This document shows, piece by piece, positions 17,238 to 49,711 of a stretch of 64,000 bases of DNA. This DNA is from Thermococcus chitonophagus. GTDB lineage: Archaea; Methanobacteriota_B; Thermococci; Thermococcales; Thermococcaceae. The translations under genes were made by a program, and so were the position numbers. The notes below the pieces were generated by a model that had not been told where the DNA came from, made no database searches, and saw nothing but the letters and a program-made list of their open reading frames with translations. The stretch spans positions 662,978 to 726,977 of the forward strand of contig NZ_CP015193.1 of the NCBI RefSeq assembly GCF_002214605.1. The letters run 5' to 3'. The first letter of the stretch is position 1; every line of letters starts with the position of its first letter.

Positions 17238-17280
17238 ATTTTATATATGTACACTTTTGATGCCTCGAAGGGTGGTGAGT
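17238..17280 (+). promoter_or_regulatory. Promoter and ribosome site of the lysine cluster
   Basis: TTTTATATA at 17239-17247 is a TATA element; the start point should fall near 17265-17270. GGTGGTGAG at 17271-17279 is the ribosome-binding site. No ATG, GTG or TTG follows it in the synthase frame until 17306, so the start of the next gene is abnormal. The gap 17068-17238 shows nothing else. Confidence 0.6.
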
Positions 17281-17305
17281 ATTAAGCGGCAGAGAAATAC
17301 TACTC

Positions 17306-18385
17306 TTGGACTCAACCCTGAGGGAAGGAGAGCAGACACCAGGAGTAAACTACACGCCAGAGCAGAGGCTTGAAATAGCCCTAGCCCTAGATGAGTTTGG
17401 AGTAGATTTCATAGAGGTCGGTCACCCTGCAGTGAGCGATGATGTATTTGCTGGAATAAAGCTCGTTTCAAATCAGGGGCTGAGGGCTAATCTCTTGGCC
17501 CACTCAAGGGCTCTAATCAGGGATGTTGATTACGTGCTAAAGGTTGGAACCAACTGGATAGGCATATTCTTCTGCGTTTCCGAGGCCTGCCTGAAGAAGA
17601 GATTTGGAATTACACTCGAGCAGGCCATGAACAGGATAGCGGAGGCGATAGAGTATGCAAAGGATCACGGTCTTAAGGTTCGTTTCACACCTGAAGATAC
17701 AACAAGAACGGAATGGAGGAACCTTGAGGCAGTACTTAGACTCGCAAAAGAACTCAAAGTTGACAGGGTTAGCATCGCGGACACAACTGGAAGCACTCAC
17801 CCCCTGAAGTTCTACCTTTTAGTCCAAAAGATAGTGAGCTTTGGAATCCCCGTGAACGTTCACTGTCACAATGATCTCGGCTTAGCCTTGGCAAATGCGA
17901 TAATGGGCATAGAGGCAGGAGCAAGCTTAGTCGATGCAACTGTTAATGGCCTAGGAGAAAGGGCTGGGATTGTTGACCTTGCACAAATAGCAACTGTCCT
18001 CTACTATCACTACGGCGTGAAGAAGTACAAGATAGACATGCTGTACTATCTAAGCAACCTTGTCAGCAAAATAACTGGGATAAAGGTCCAGCCAAACTAT
18101 CCAATTGTTGGGGCAAATGCGTTCACCCATAAAGCTGGACTTCACGTTTCAGCAGTCATAAAGGATCCAACGTTCTACGAGTTCCTGCCAGCGGAAACCT
18201 TTGGCAGAGAAAGGACGATCTACGTTGACCGCTTCGCGGGCAGGGACACCATAAGGTACTACCTTGAAAGGGCCGGTATTACGGACGAAAAAATTATCGA
18301 TGCCCTTCTTAGGAGAGTGAAGAGCTCGAGAGAGCCCTTTACGTGGGAGAGGCTTATTGAAGAGGCAAGGAGGTTAATGACATGA
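17306..18385 (+). CDS. Homocitrate synthase-like (2-isopropylmalate/homocitrate synthase family)
   Basis: DRE-TIM metallolyase condensing acetyl-CoA with a 2-oxoacid, here probably 2-oxoglutarate to give homocitrate. Motifs are the catalytic [12 protein letters not shown], the metal-binding [12 protein letters not shown], and [11 protein letters not shown] 17306 is the first standard start but would begin at Asp of the DSTLRE motif and remove the first beta strand. The frame continues upstream as GREILLL to a TGA at 17276, so translation probably begins near 17282 with a non-standard codon after GGTGGTGAG. It overlaps lysT-like by four bases. Confidence 0.88.
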
Positions 18386-26100: not shown

Positions 26101-26164
26101 CTATACTACTTTTACGTTGATAAGACTTCAACCTTCGTCATATGGATAGGAACAGGTAACCAAG

Positions 26165-26204
26165 AGTTTAAATAGGGATATTATGTGCACATTTGGTGGT
26201 GATC
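26165..26204 (+). promoter_or_regulatory. Promoter and ribosome site of the shikimate operon leader
   Basis: TTTAAATA at 26167-26174 is the TATA element, giving a transcript start near 26195. GGTGATC at 26198-26204 is an ideal Shine-Dalgarno site for Pyrococcus 16S rRNA and lies five bases before ATG 26210. A strong ribosome site is thus devoted to the small leader frame and not to a full-length gene. Confidence 0.7.
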
Positions 26205-26205
26205 A

Positions 26206-26290
26206 GGTGATGCCACGCCAATTTACACAGTCCAAGGTGATGCCCCGCCAATGGGTGATGCCCTGCCAATATCTATAGCTGAAGGCGGGG
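26206..26290 (+). promoter_or_regulatory. Possible RNA switch: alternative hairpins in the leader
   Basis: GGCGGGG at 26284-26290 can pair perfectly with CCCCGCC of the Trp module (26243-26249). It can also pair with CCCTGCC of the Tyr module (26261-26267, one G-U), and nearly with CCACGCC of the Phe module (26213-26219, one mismatch). These pairings exclude one another, so ribosome position on the leader could select among them. This is read directly from complementarity; no folding energy has been computed. Confidence 0.5.
26210..26278 (+). CDS. Putative aromatic leader peptide (Phe-Trp-Tyr modules)
   Basis: A 22-codon frame starting at ATG 26210 and ending with TAG 26276-26278. It contains MPRQ-F (residues 1-5), MPRQ-W (11-15) and MPCQ-Y (17-21), then Leu and stop. 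Each module begins with the DNA motif GGTGATGCC (at 26206, 26236 and 26254) and ends with a different aromatic codon: TTT, TGG, TAT. Module spacings of 30 and 18 bases keep frame. GGTGATC sits five bases before the ATG. The frame overlaps the start of the next gene by 28 bases. It precedes the operon making the common precursor of all three aromatic amino acids. I infer a regulatory leader peptide; a repeated operator or RNA element is the alternative. Confidence 0.7.
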   Translation: MPRQFTQSKVMPRQWVMPCQYL

Positions 26291-26565
26291 TAGAGGTTCT
26301 CAGGAAATTGCTTCTGAGGGCCTTAAACGAAAACCAGAGGCTTATACTTCAGAGTATAAACGGTAAGCACAGGTCACTGAACGCACTTTTAGAAGAGCTG
26401 AGCAGGAAAGAAAGGAAGCCACTGTCCACACTGAAGCTTAATGCAAGGATACTCAAGGAGCTTGGCCTAATTGACTACGGTACAAAGGAAAACCCGAGGC
26501 CCGTTACCCTTACCGAGGAGGGTAAGCTTATTCTTAGGATCTTGGGGGGTGATGGTTTTGAGTGA
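26251..26565 (+). CDS. Small winged-helix-like protein, candidate regulator
   Basis: The 104-residue protein has a helix-rich core resembling a winged helix: RLILQSINGKHRSLNALLEEL, then STLKLNARILKELGLIDYG, then RPVTLTEEGKLILRIL as the wing. It is the first full-length gene of the shikimate operon, so it may control the operon. ATG 26251 overlaps the leader peptide frame; TTG 26308 would give an 85-residue protein retaining the whole domain and lies beyond the G-rich segment of the hairpin. It overlaps the transketolase gene by 14 bases. No ligand domain is visible. Confidence 0.65.
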   Translation: MGDALPISIAEGGVEVLRKLLLRALNENQRLILQSINGKHRSLNALLEELSRKERKPLSTLKLNARILKELGLIDYGTKENPRPVTLTEEGKLILRILGGDGFE

Positions 26566-40405: not shown

Positions 40406-41472
40406 AGGGAAAGCTGTTGAGCTTTACCCTCTTTGGTGAGAGCCACGGTAGGGCAGTAGGGGTGTTGATAGAGGGGATGCCCCCAGGGATTAAAATCAGC
40501 GTTGATGAAATGAAAAAAGAGCTCGAGAGGAGAAAGGGCATAGCGAGGTTCTCAACAAAGAGAAGAGAGCCTGATGAGCCGATAATTTTGTCGGGAGTGT
40601 TCAGGGACTACACCACCGGAACGCCGATTGCTGTAATCGTCGAGAATAAAGACGTTGATTCTTCATATTATGAGGAGATAAAGAACACGCCAAGGCCAGG
40701 GCATGCCGACTATCCCGCTAGGATAAAGTACTTCGGCTACAACGACTACAGGGGAGGGGGATACTTCTCTGGAAGACTCACCATCGGCATCGTAATCGCT
40801 GGGTATTTCGCCAAGAAAATTCTCGAAAGGTATGGGATAAAGGTGAGGGCCTACCTAAAGAGAATCGGTAAAGTTGAGGCAAGAGAGATAAGCATTGAGG
40901 AAGTTTTCTCTTCAAGGAATCCTTACTGTCCTGATGAGGAGGCATTTGAAAAAATGATTGAGGAAATGGAAGAGGCTAGAAAAAAGGGAGATAGCGTTGG
41001 TGGTGTTGTTGAAGTAGTGGCAATAAACGTTCCTCCCGGCCTGGGTGGGCCCCACGATGAAGATATTGAAGCAGATCTCGCATCGGCATTCTTTAGGATT
41101 CCCGCAGTTAAGGGGGTTGAATTTGGCTTGGGATTCAAATTTGCGGAAAAGAGGGGGAGTGAGGTGAATGATCCCTTCGTCATTAGGGATGGAAAAGTAG
41201 TTACCGAAACAAACAATCATGGTGGAGTTTTGGGGGGAATAACCACGGGCATGCCAATAGTTGCAAGGGTAGCCTTCAAGCCTACCCCTTCCATATACCT
41301 TCCTCAGAGAACCGTAGACCTCGAAAGGATGGAAGAGATCGAGATTAAGCTTAGGGGCAGGTTTGACTCGTGCATAGTTCCAAAGGCCCTTCCAGTGGTA
41401 GAGGGCATGATGGCCTTTGTTATAGCAGATCACCTTCTGAGGAGGAAAGCCTGGGAGGATTTCGTTGGTTAG
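40402..41472 (+). CDS. aroC: Chorismate synthase
   Basis: FMN-dependent formation of chorismate from EPSP. The 356-residue protein shows FTLFGESHGRAVGVLIEGMPPG, KDVDSSYYEEIKNTPRPGHAD, the RGGGYFSGRLT segment, and RGRFDSCIVPKALPVVEGMMA. The ATG overlaps the aroA stop by four bases. Its stop is followed directly by a perfect palindrome and the promoter of the tyrosine operon. Confidence 0.95.
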   Translation: MKGKLLSFTLFGESHGRAVGVLIEGMPPGIKISVDEMKKELERRKGIARFSTKRREPDEPIILSGVFRDYTTGTPIAVIVENKDVDSSYYEEIKNTPRPGHADYPARIKYFGYNDYRGGGYFSGRLTIGIVIAGYFAKKILERYGIKVRAYLKRIGKVEAREISIEEVFSSRNPYCPDEEAFEKMIEEMEEARKKGDSVGGVVEVVAINVPPGLGGPHDEDIEADLASAFFRIPAVKGVEFGLGFKFAEKRGSEVNDPFVIRDGKVVTETNNHGGVLGGITTGMPIVARVAFKPTPSIYLPQRTVDLERMEEIEIKLRGRFDSCIVPKALPVVEGMMAFVIADHLLRRKAWEDFVG

Positions 41473-41488
41473 GTTTAGCTGTCTAAAC
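41473..41488. promoter_or_regulatory. Perfect palindrome upstream of the tyrosine operon
   Basis: GTTTAG (41473-41478) and CTAAAC (41483-41488) flank CTGT and are exact reverse complements. The site touches the TATA-like TTTTATACT at 41491-41499, a good position for a repressor. It shares TGTCTARAC with the inverted repeat upstream of the shikimate operon. Confidence 0.5.
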
Positions 41489-41523: not shown

Positions 41524-41528
41524 AGGTG

Positions 41529-41549
41529 ATGCCACGCCAATATCTTTAG
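41529..41549 (+). CDS. Putative tyrosine leader peptide MPRQYL
   Basis: ATG 41529 opens the six-residue frame MPRQYL, closed by TAG 41547-41549. It is one copy of the module seen three times ahead of the shikimate operon, here with the Tyr codon only, and it precedes chorismate mutase, an aromatic-type aminotransferase and prephenate dehydrogenase. AGGTG precedes the ATG in both leaders. DNA identity to the Tyr module of the shikimate leader continues past the stop (CCAATATCT then TAGCTG). The alternative is that the conserved unit is an RNA or DNA site and the peptide is incidental. Confidence 0.65.
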   Translation: MPRQYL

Positions 41550-41568
41550 CTGGAGATGGCGGAATGGC
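41531..41568 (+). promoter_or_regulatory. Leader hairpin covering the chorismate mutase start
   Basis: GCCA-CGCC (41531-41538) pairs with GGCG (41558-41561) and TGGC (41565-41568) around a GAA bulge. Inside, ATCT (41542-41545) pairs with AGAT (41554-41557) around an eight-base loop. The structure covers the GGAGAT ribosome site (41552-41557) and part of ATG 41564. A ribosome held on the leader Tyr codon (41541-41543) would occupy the 5' arm. Energies not computed. Confidence 0.5.
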
Positions 41569-41794
41569 AAGGATAAAATCATTAAGAGAGCAGATAGATG
41601 AAATAGACAGGGAGATAATAGCTCTTCTTGAGAGGAGATTAGAGATAGCAAGGCAGATTGGGGAAATAAAGAAGTCGCTGGGCCTCCCAATAGAGGACAA
41701 GTCTAGGGAAGAGGAAGTTCTTAGGAGGGCCGGCAAGTTTAGACCAATTTTTGAGAAAATTTTGGAGGTGAGTAAGGATGTTCAACGTTTATGA
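41564..41794 (+). CDS. aroQ: Chorismate mutase, AroQ type
   Basis: Small monofunctional chorismate mutase of 76 residues making prephenate. The AroQ helix carries LREQIDEIDREIIALLERRLEIARQIGEIK in two halves, with the active-site Arg, Lys and Glu positions, and the second helix ends in DKSREEEVLRRA. The start is ATG 41564, right after the leader hairpin; the longer frame from 41465 runs through the promoter and leader and is not homologous. It overlaps the aminotransferase by 17 bases. It lacks any fused prephenate dehydratase or dehydrogenase domain. Confidence 0.9.
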   Translation: MARIKSLREQIDEIDREIIALLERRLEIARQIGEIKKSLGLPIEDKSREEEVLRRAGKFRPIFEKILEVSKDVQRL

Positions 41795-47941: not shown

Positions 47942-48897
47942 GCGATCTCCTCCAGCTTTCTGAGCATTTCCCTTCCGAGAACATTTTCTACAGCTTCAAC
48001 TCCCTCCTTCAAATCCTTGACAACTTTCGAAGCGTATAGTGCCGTTGCGGCATTGATTAAGATGAAATTCCTATCCTCGCTCCTTCCATTTCCTGCTAAA
48101 ACTGCTTTCACTCTCTCGGCGCTTTCCTGGGGAGAGTTGCAGGGGACTACCTTAACCCTCTCTAGGCCAAAATCTTCTGGTGTAACCTTGTAGACTTCGA
48201 CATTTCTTCCGTTGACTTCGGCAACTATGGTTTCATCCCCTGGGTTCACTTCATCTAATCCTGATCCGTGCACTACTAGGGCCCTCTCCACTCCCAAGAA
48301 TGTTAGTGCCTTTGCAATCTTCTCCACGAGTTCTGGGGAGTTAACCCCAACAACTTGGTAGCTGGGCTCTGCTGGACTTGCCAAAGGTCCCAAGATGTTA
48401 AAGACAGTCTTTATTCTTAGTAGCTTTCTGACTGGCATTATCCTCTTCAGCGCGGGATGGTACATCGGTGCAAATAGAAAAGTAAAGTTTGCTTTTTCGA
48501 CCATTTCTCTAGCTTTCTCCGGTGGGATCTTGATGTTTATTCCTAAGGCCTCGAGAAGGTTCGCTGAACCGCTCTTTGATGTTATTGAAACATTGCCGTG
48601 CTTTGCAACTTTTGTAAATGCCGAGAGTATTATTGCCGAGGCGGTACTAACATTTATCGTTGAGGCTCCATCTCCTCCCGTTCCTGCAGTGTCTGCTACT
48701 TTGCCGAGATCAACCTTTATTGCATGGTCTCTCATGGCCCTTGCGAGCCCCGCTATTTCTTCGGCCGTGTACCCTTTGGTCTGCAGTGCTGCTAGATACG
48801 CAGCTATCCTAACTTCGCTTTCCCTCATTAGCTCGCTGAAAAGGTTGTACGCTTCCTTAAACGTAAGATTTTCCCCCTCGATAATTTTCTCCAACAT
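47923..48897 (-). CDS. trpD: Anthranilate phosphoribosyltransferase
   Basis: Transfers phosphoribose from PRPP to anthranilate. The 324-residue protein has the PRPP loop DTAGTGGDGASTINVSTASA, the KHGNVSITSKSGSANLLEALG segment, and HGSGLDEVNPGDET. The start ATG overlaps the trpC stop by one base. It is an ordinary monofunctional TrpD. Confidence 0.95.
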   Translation of the reverse strand: MLEKIIEGENLTFKEAYNLFSELMRESEVRIAAYLAALQTKGYTAEEIAGLARAMRDHAIKVDLGKVADTAGTGGDGASTINVSTASAIILSAFTKVAKHGNVSITSKSGSANLLEALGINIKIPPEKAREMVEKANFTFLFAPMYHPALKRIMPVRKLLRIKTVFNILGPLASPAEPSYQVVGVNSPELVEKIAKALTFLGVERALVVHGSGLDEVNPGDETIVAEVNGRNVEVYKVTPEDFGLERVKVVPCNSPQESAERVKAVLAGNGRSEDRNFILINAATALYASKVVKDLKEGVEAVENVLGREMLRKLEEIACLSKS

Positions 48898-49580
48898 TAA
48901 AGATCAGCCTCCACAAAAGTTTTGAGAAGTGCCCCAGGATCTTCAGCCTTCATTAGGGCAGTTCCTATGAGTGCTGCATCGGCAACTTTTAGGGCTCTCC
49001 TGAGGTCTTCGATCGTGGCTATACCACTTTCGCTGACTTTCACAAATTTCCTTGGTATTTTTGGTGCAAGCCTCTCCGTCAGTGATACATTGCCATCATC
49101 GAGCTCTAACTTCCCTATATCCCTGTTGTTTATCCCTATCATTGTCGAGTTCGTAGTTAGGGCTATTCCTAGCTCTTCTTCTGTATGCACTTCAACGAGG
49201 GTGTCAAGTCCGTGCTCTTTGGCATAGTCGACGAACTCTGGGAGTCTATCCCTTAGAATTCTGGTTATCAGGAGTATTGCCGAACCTCCAGCTTCGGCTG
49301 TTTTCTCAATTTCCTCTTTTGTTGTAATGAAGTCCTTCCTGAGAACTGGTAGCTCCGTTTCCCTGCAGAGCTTTTTGAAAAATTCGAAACTTCCCTTAAA
49401 GTACTTGGGATCTGTTATGTATGAAATACCTACTGCTCCTGCTTCCTCGTATTTCCTGAGTATCTCAAAAGGATCCCTGCCCCTTAAAAGGTCGCCATAC
49501 TTTGGAGAATAGACTTTAAGCTCGGCTATTATGGCGTTTTTCTTAGAGGTTCTTATTGCCCTGCTTAATCCAAAAACCAT
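48897..49580 (-). CDS. trpC: Indole-3-glycerol phosphate synthase
   Basis: Converts CdRP to indole-3-glycerol phosphate. The 227-residue barrel has IIAELKVYSPKYGDL with the catalytic Glu and Lys, LPVLRKDFIT with the general-acid Lys, GINNRDIGKLELD and VSESGI near the C terminus. ATG 49580 is preferred: the TATA element at 49620-49631 predicts a transcript start near 49600, which excludes the open frame from 49640. The ATG is preceded by AAATGGGTG, similar to the Trp module of the shikimate leader, and lies inside a 14-codon frame that starts seven bases earlier. Confidence 0.93.
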   Translation of the reverse strand: MVFGLSRAIRTSKKNAIIAELKVYSPKYGDLLRGRDPFEILRKYEEAGAVGISYITDPKYFKGSFEFFKKLCRETELPVLRKDFITTKEEIEKTAEAGGSAILLITRILRDRLPEFVDYAKEHGLDTLVEVHTEEELGIALTTNSTMIGINNRDIGKLELDDGNVSLTERLAPKIPRKFVKVSESGIATIEDLRRALKVADAALIGTALMKAEDPGALLKTFVEADL

Positions 49581-49587
49581 CACCCAT
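49543..49587 (-). CDS. Possible tryptophan leader peptide overlapping trpC start
   Basis: On the minus strand ATG 49587 opens a 14-residue frame, MGDGFWIKQGNKNL, ending TAA 49545-49543. GGTGG at 49599-49595 is a better-placed ribosome site for this ATG than for the trpC ATG at 49580. The frame contains adjacent Phe and Trp codons. Its first bases ATGGGTGATG are identical to those at the start of the winged-helix gene of the shikimate operon. The evidence is suggestive only, because a short overlapping frame can arise by chance. Confidence 0.3.
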   Translation of the reverse strand: MGDGFWIKQGNKNL

Positions 49588-49633: not shown

Positions 49634-49711
49634 TGGACATTTTTGCCTATCCATATTCCATTCGGAAAAAGATTTAACCCAATGCAACTAAAAAGTCGAA
49701 GGGTGTTTCAA

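Follow-up and report, generated by a model that had tools for sequence, protein, structure and literature searches.

A modular leader ORF upstream of tar in Thermococcus chitonophagus, a candidate frameshift-based sensor of aromatic aminoacyl-tRNAs

A short leader ORF carrying three copies of one nucleotide module, which end in a Phe, a Trp and a Tyr codon respectively, was found in a 64,000-nucleotide stretch of Thermococcus chitonophagus DNA (hereafter the window) ahead of tar, the gene of the TK0271 family activator, and tar is read in the frame minus 1 relative to the leader. We propose, with a probability of roughly 0.6, that this leader is a modular aminoacyl-tRNA sensor working by a change of reading frame. 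The existence of the leader is well supported, and the frameshifting is what we infer from the arrangement of frames and start codons in related genomes.

Genomes and loci compared

The tar search covered 94 genomes of the family and gave matches in 33 of them at E<=0.001. Seven genomes with only weak or broken matches (G019, G027, G028, G041, G060, G070 and G088) and second matches in G028, G068 and G089 were excluded from the tar count, and 28 tar loci from 26 genomes were analysed. Module counts exclude an out-of-register match in G053 and the places without CAA (the third place of G046, the first of G018, the last of G006 and of G010, and the chorismate mutase leader of G018). The comparison was extended to 20 chorismate mutase loci, to 14 trpC loci (excluding G014, which had no matching motif, and a fragment in G089) and to hisZ, the first gene of the his operon, for which 30 loci were read out of 46 strong matches in the family. 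As the species are related, the module and locus counts are not independent.

The leader ORF and the Tar regulon in the window

The features discussed here are collected in Table 1. As originally predicted, a frame of 22 codons with a ribosome site (GGTGATC) five bases ahead of its ATG is present at 26198-26278, and the three in-frame copies of MP(R/C)Q, each with a different aromatic codon, were recovered 30 and 18 bases apart. At the nucleotide level these copies are modules GGTGATG-N6-CAA-(TTT/TGG/TAT) (n=3) in the frame of the leader, in which the 17-base GGTGATGCCNNGCCAAT starts with 0 mismatches at 26206, 26236 and 26254; a fourth such copy, at 41525, lies upstream of the chorismate mutase gene. 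When up to 3 mismatches were allowed, GGTGATGCCNNGCCAAT had 6 matches in the window against 1.15 expected, and 6 were reached by 0/100 shuffles. The presence of an ORF by itself means little, since a short ATG ORF led by a Shine-Dalgarno sequence was found near the start of 10/67 window genes, and it is conservation and frame that carry the argument.

The leader had been described as preceding a shikimate operon; it does lie upstream of that operon, but the first gene (26251-26565) is tar and not a shikimate enzyme. The tar product of 104 residues matches NCBIfam NF053753 (TK0271_fam) with 167.6 bits (cut-off 130), and the tar ATG overlaps the leader Trp codon. In T. kodakarensis, Tar is the activator of the aro, tyr-phe and trp operons and has TGGACA-N8-TGTCCA as its binding site, the absence of any one of Phe, Tyr and Trp raises all three operons, and erythrose 4-phosphate counteracts Tar binding in vitro; how the cell notices the absence of any one of the three amino acids was posed as open (PMC6737238). 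That study deals with transcription and erythrose 4-phosphate, and the terms leader, frameshift and start codon occur 0 times in its main text. Regulator, operons and Tar boxes are the same here: as expected of the Tar regulon, Tar palindromes precede the TATA boxes of all three operons (aro, tyr-phe and trp) in the window. This argument is one of position and not of score, because 22 sites at up to 3 mismatches were found in the window against 17-29 in ten shuffled windows.

Table 1. Features of the window related to the tar, tyr-phe and trp leaders
Feature	Coordinates	Strand	Basis
Tar box TGGATA-N8-TAACCA, 3 mismatches to TGGACA-N8-TGTCCA, directly 5' of TATA box	26143..26162	+	consensus PMC6737238
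TATA box TTTAAATAG, aro promoter	26167..26175	+	sequence, inference
Shine-Dalgarno sequence of leader ORF	26198..26204	+	sequence
Leader ORF MPRQFTQSKVMPRQWVMPCQYL followed by stop; ATG 26210-26212, TAG 26276-26278	26210..26278	+	sequence
Module 1, last codon Phe TTT (26222-26224)	26206..26224	+	motif match
Module 2, last codon Trp TGG (26252-26254); overlapping ATG at 26251, possible tar start	26236..26254	+	motif match
Module 3, last codon Tyr TAT (26270-26272), one sense codon ahead of stop	26254..26272	+	motif match
tar (TK0271 family activator), frame leader minus 1, open from 26203	26251..26565	+	profile match, frame
Tar box of tyr-phe promoter, 3 mismatches	41466..41485	+	consensus PMC6737238
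Leader ORF MPRQYL followed by stop, of tyr-phe operon, module from 41525	41529..41549	+	motif match
Chorismate mutase (AroQ), frame leader minus 1, own ATG present here	41564..41794	+	sequence, profile
trpC, frame overlapping ORF plus 1	48897..49580	-	sequence, comparison
Overlapping ORF MGDGFWIKQGNKNL followed by stop, in trpC, GGTGAT-3 nt-TTT-TGG	49543..49587	-	sequence
Tar box of trp promoter, 1 mismatch	49634..49653	-	consensus PMC6737238

Modules and reading frames in related genomes

The tar gene is in the frame leader minus 1 in 28/28 loci, the paralogue L036 included. All places GGTGATG-N6-CAA-T upstream of tar or chorismate mutase, searched in any frame, stand in the minus 1 relation to the gene (53/53), although their distances to the conserved core take 11 values for tar and 2 for chorismate mutase; a short zero frame that overlaps or joins a gene in a fixed other frame is one mark of programmed frameshifting of the release factor 2 type. 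From the Phe module onward, the -1 frame is without stop in the 6/6 loci that have such a module.

Tar leaders consist of one module (MVMPRQYL or MVMSRQYL), of two (MSRQWVMPRQY) or of three (MSRQFTRPSNQVMSRQWVMPRQY), each closed by a stop codon, with MPRQWVMPRQWVMPRQY, MSRLGRSSNQVMPHQYW, MAEPKVMPRQYW, MRGEFKVMPYQWKILE and MSCQWKYLP, likewise followed by a stop, as variants. Phe, Trp and Tyr occur together in 7/28 leaders, among them those of the window, of its nearest relative by tar (G008) and of G023. The other leaders have Trp and Tyr only, Tyr alone (a single Tyr module in 9 leaders) or Trp alone, the last being the sole aromatic residue in G006 and in the paralogue G004b, so that the amino acid set is not fixed. 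The stop codon lies within one codon of the last aromatic codon in 21/28 tar leaders and 2-8 codons further in 7/28; in G046, the third module is degenerate (CAC-TAT) and the leader continues in a long tail. Extra aromatic codons are present where the module differs (MPRQYW, MSCQWKYLP, MRGEFKVMPYQW and MSRQYW). The idea of a Phe/Trp/Tyr leader holds in so far as the ORF looks translated and its frame is kept in relatives, but most relatives have fewer than three of the amino acids.

The codon that follows CAA, searched in the leader frame, is aromatic in 54/54 in-register modules (TAT 30, TGG 18, TTT 6), and CAA before a Phe, Trp or Tyr codon was counted in 1/79 cases in the long ORFs of 14 loci. 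Tyr is encoded by TAT in 30/30 modules vs 285/822 in long ORFs, and Gln by CAA in 54/54 modules vs 160/441 in long ORFs (loci of 21 genomes in both comparisons). The codon preceding CAA is CGC, TGC, CAC or TAC, with variable first two bases and a constant final C; CGC, the Arg codon of the modules, is rare (0/122 Arg codons counted in G000). At the level of residues, Pro alternates with Ser and once with Gln, and Arg with Cys, His and Tyr, whereas C-CAA-U is fixed in the counted modules. The conserved part of the leader, which had been taken as a Met-Pro-Arg-Gln peptide, is therefore better read as nucleotides: GGUGAU, being complementary to the 3' end of archaeal 16S rRNA, resembles an internal Shine-Dalgarno sequence, and C-CAA a codon context ahead of the aromatic codon. 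The outcome named beforehand as speaking against the original prediction, homologous operons that keep the nucleotides and break the frame or the aromatic codons, was looked for in the 28 tar loci and did not appear in that form, intact modules keeping both frame and aromatic codon.

Two side observations concern tar itself. The second tar-like gene L036 (G004:C1:388477) has a one-module leader, MMVMSRQWKS followed by a stop; in P. abyssi, a tar paralogue lies near tungsten oxidoreductase genes (PMC6737238). In G028 (L032, L049, L084), the tar match is broken by TGA and chorismate mutase is apparently out of frame, which possibly reflects a decaying aromatic pathway.

Chorismate mutase and genes without a start codon

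Chorismate mutase is the first gene of the tyr-phe operon and begins just 3' of the MPRQYL leader. Its 20 loci divide into 10 with their own promoter and leader and 10 in which the gene runs on from the preceding one without a leader. The leader of G018 is degenerate (MVMFR, then a stop) and has an ATG at the spot of the ATA of the others. Between leader start and conserved core, the gene frame is without ATG, GTG or TTG in 9/38 tar and chorismate mutase loci (5 tar, 4 chorismate mutase), and 29/38 have one; it is without ATG or GTG in 13/38.

Genome G023, with the chorismate mutase locus L078, is taken here to be T. kodakarensis. Gene order at L078 is as in PMC6737238. The leader of G023 holds Phe, Trp and Tyr. 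The chorismate mutase frame of L078, GDGDVPPISSPDLVELAILRRRIDEID, has no start codon, and its first in-frame ATG is located 54 nt inside the conserved core; in L078 and L076, the match to the CM_2 profile sets in at residue 19 of the frame that lacks a start. For T. kodakarensis chorismate mutase, the expected transcript was given as 360 nt, with 251 bp downstream of the annotated start (PMC6737238), from which a 109-nt leader and an annotated start on the internal ATG can be deduced. With no start codon anywhere in the full frame, TK0261 has probably been annotated from a Met that lies inside the conserved helix.

trpC, his and other amino acid operons

An overlapping ORF with Phe-Trp is present in 14/14 trpC loci. 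It starts 13 or 16 nt ahead of the trpC Phe codon (ATG 11, GTG 3) and stops 4-11 codons after Phe-Trp, trpC being in the +1 frame. By eye, 11/14 loci have GGTGAT 3 nt ahead of the TTT of the ORF, the remaining three having GGTGAG or GGTGGT at this place; +1 frameshifting is known to use a Shine-Dalgarno spacing of 3 nt (PMC5009743). The trpC Phe codon and the codon preceding it end in T in 14/14 loci, which is moderate evidence since some other trpC codons are as constant. Direct initiation of trpC is possible, since GTG or ATG is found in the trpC frame in 14/14 loci. At locus L099 (G026), trpC has the overlapping ORF with Phe-Trp, and a palindrome resembling the Tar box was seen by eye; the tar search found no tar in G026.

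Upstream of hisZ, 30/30 loci (L134-L163) contain a short ORF whose last few codons include two to four for His, the ends being SYCHHH, LVSYCHHH and VTYCHHLF and, in Pyrococcus-like leaders, HCHH and IFHHI, all directly before the stop. The frame from the His run to the hisZ start is open in +1 in 30/30 loci and in -1 in 3/30, and in mononucleotide-shuffled hisZ spacers a random frame would be open in about 8.5/30. The TGA of the +1 frame overlaps the hisZ start codon in 27/30 loci over ten spacer lengths (51 to 93 nt); the exceptions are G000 (stop at +14), G042 (in frame into hisZ) and G063 (+68). No start codon occurs in the +1 frame from the last stop ahead of the His run up to that run (30/30 loci, L134 and L135 having been read at a wrong His pair). 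At 13 nt ahead of the first His codon, GGTGA or GGTGG is present in 11/13 leaders inspected and is absent in two Pyrococcus-like ones; L146 and L155 are also without it at that place. GGTG precedes the CAA of the tar modules at the same distance of 13 nt. In the genome of the window itself, a his leader with an open +1 frame to the hisZ start is located to the left of the window (G000:C1:661389). The gene hisG, downstream of hisZ, has an ordinary start. These data speak for a ribosome that enters +1 while on the His codons, which would couple the leader to hisZ.

In the LysW operon, whose first gene is homocitrate synthase-like (window 17260-17310; L176-L193), GGTG..ATTAAG with the Lys codon AAG was seen by eye in 18/18 loci. 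Relative to a reading that resembles V-(V/M)-x-I-K, this gene lies in the +1 frame. L187, L188 and L190 have no ATG, GTG or TTG near the gene, and L176 (window) and L177 offer TTG alone. On the other hand, 8 loci have ATG in the gene frame 9 nt ahead of the core, and the zero frame is not a short one. For IlvC, no leader was seen within 160 nt upstream of 7 strong matches.

Proposed mechanism

Translation of the leader, the change of frame with its direction and slip mechanics, and the response to starvation are proposed from the sequences as follows. A ribosome would initiate at the leader AUG and, with ample Phe-, Trp- and Tyr-tRNA, read to the stop shortly past the last aromatic codon, so that little Tar is made. 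If one of these became scarce, the hungry codon (UUU, UGG or UAU) would wait in the A site while CAA occupied the P site, and the internal GGUGAU, 7 nt ahead of CAA, would hold the stalled ribosome in place. The ribosome could then move to the -1 frame, either by re-pairing from CAA on CCA or through an Ile or Met tRNA reading AUN in the A site. Since no stop interrupts the -1 frame between the first module and tar, a shift at any module would make Tar, and the leader would act as an OR gate for the amino acids that it contains; Tar would then activate transcription of aro, trp and tyr-phe. A three-module OR gate would explain why the lack of any one amino acid raises all three operons.

Chorismate mutase would have a one-module (Tyr) copy of the same control. 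The direction would not be the same everywhere: tar and chorismate mutase would be entered by a -1 shift, and trpC would need a +1 shift, as would hisZ, there combined with coupling. The trpC version (GGUGAU-3 nt-UUU-UGG) could let tRNA-Phe slide from UUU to UUU under Trp scarcity. Re-pairing of the anticodons, judged by inspection, would be perfect for UUU to UUU in trpC, would keep two of three pairs for CAA to CCA in tar and chorismate mutase, and would be poor in his.

Several observations count against this mechanism. There is no classical slippery heptamer, and the passage from CAA to CCA leaves a middle mismatch; tar and chorismate mutase would shift by -1 but his and trp by +1; and Phe, Trp and Tyr are all present in a minority of tar leaders. 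The Shine-Dalgarno spacing of 3 nt in trpC fits +1 frameshifting, and in tar and chorismate mutase it is 7 nt to the P-site codon vs 9-14 nt for bacterial -1 sites (PMC5009743). Some ATG, GTG or TTG is available in the gene frame in 29/38 tar and chorismate mutase loci; at the Trp modules, the ATG shares bases with the Trp codon and follows GGUGAU by 9 nt, so that direct initiation is possible there. Erythrose 4-phosphate, through its effect on Tar binding, may be another sensor.

Alternative explanations

Leader codons for the regulated amino acids, a feature of leader-peptide attenuation, are present ahead of tar and chorismate mutase, in trpC and in his. A true leader peptide could sense aromatic tRNAs by stalling alone, and alter mRNA folding, transcription or re-initiation with no change of frame; the cognate codons of the aromatic and his leaders agree with this, as does a 9-bp hairpin that spans the Tyr module in the window. 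We nevertheless consider it unlikely. The fixed frame, the open alternative frames and the start-less genes would stay unexplained; folding z-scores of 6 sequences were not significant (-0.5 to -1.9); several relatives lack GGCGGGG, the partner strand of the hairpin; and a ribosome stalled on the Trp or Tyr module would presumably cover the tar start and lower Tar. Neither the Rfam scans nor the folding z-scores gave conserved terminator/antiterminator or Shine-Dalgarno-sequestering hairpins. The hairpin CCCUGCC/GGCGGGG, which is found in the window and some Thermococcus-like genomes and absent in others, was rejected as a candidate, and so was a structured RNA element common to chorismate mutase and tar, since the relatives have kept frame and codons and not the stem. 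As for a riboswitch or T-box, Rfam over the window returned only 5S rRNA and a tRNA, and what permissive scans of both leaders picked up scored far under the family cut-offs. Over classical attenuation, with which the leader had at first been compared, a frame change at the hungry codon is favoured by the frame relation to tar and chorismate mutase, the start-less genes and the independent his leader.

It could also be that the modules direct initiation, as GGUGAU-9 nt-AUG/AUA/AUU, with Tar and chorismate mutase starting at AUA or AUU where no AUG is available. The spacing suits initiation, the Trp modules hold AUG at the AUN spot, and the degenerate leader of G018 has its ATG exactly where the others have ATA. 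What makes this reading distinctly improbable is that the base after AUN always turns UNN into an aromatic codon (54/54), that leader ATG and C-CAA are conserved though they would not be translated, that variant leaders have extra aromatic codons, and that a His leader would need AUC starts, yet hisZ has its own Shine-Dalgarno sequence and start. That the repeats are instead protein-binding sites (a DNA operator or an RNA site, for instance of Tar) and the ORF incidental would account for the strong nucleotide conservation, the rare Arg codon CGC included. The modules, however, stay in frame over many distances and close with an aromatic codon, they match no Rfam family, and they lie downstream of the TATA box, the known Tar site being a palindrome upstream of it (PMC6737238); we give this possibility hardly any weight, and the modules were rejected as Tar operator on account of that different, upstream palindrome.

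Comparison with known systems and significance

Among the closest known systems is the autoregulatory +1 frameshifting of bacterial prfB (release factor 2), with which the proposed frame change would share a short zero frame, a slow codon, an internal Shine-Dalgarno sequence and a product made only after the change of frame, the spacing of 3 nt being that of trpC here (PMC5009743). It differs from prfB in that charged tRNAs would be sensed, that tar and chorismate mutase would shift by -1, that up to three modules stand in series and that the system is archaeal.

The bacterial leader-peptide attenuators trpL, pheL and hisL have leader codons for the end-product amino acids. The leaders described here have the same kind of codons and presumably respond to tRNA charging as well, but no conserved terminator/antiterminator structure was seen in them and the downstream gene is linked by frame. 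Frameshifting in pheL is considered incidental, and hungry-codon frameshifting is known from E. coli experiments, as the same frame change at a codon with scarce charged tRNA but as a laboratory effect; according to that 2016 review, no natural starvation-specific trans-frame protein was known (PMC5009743). In archaea, one case of -1 frameshifting has been reported, fucA1 of Saccharolobus, where the reason for regulation was stated to be unknown (PMC8211752); the frame change is the same as proposed here, but it uses a slippery heptamer. In the literature searched, mostly at title or abstract level and with preprints outside its scope, no report of such leader frameshifting was recognised.

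Whether the Thermococcales generally control amino acid synthesis by a hungry-codon frame change is to us an evenly balanced question. A cognate codon would then stand at a fixed distance from an internal GGUGA, and the shift would either yield an activator or a first enzyme, as for tar, chorismate mutase and trpC, or bring the ribosome to the hisZ start, with perhaps the lysine/arginine operon as a further case; this would be a natural class of frameshift-based tRNA-charging sensors, in which the fullest tar leaders would be OR gates with three inputs. If true, the proposed leader function would provide natural, starvation-driven frameshifting at hungry codons as a sensor, and amino-acid leader control in archaea. 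It would correct the start of T. kodakarensis chorismate mutase and offer a modular logic element that is testable in a genetically tractable archaeon, and it would show by what means T. kodakarensis detects that any one of the three amino acids is missing.
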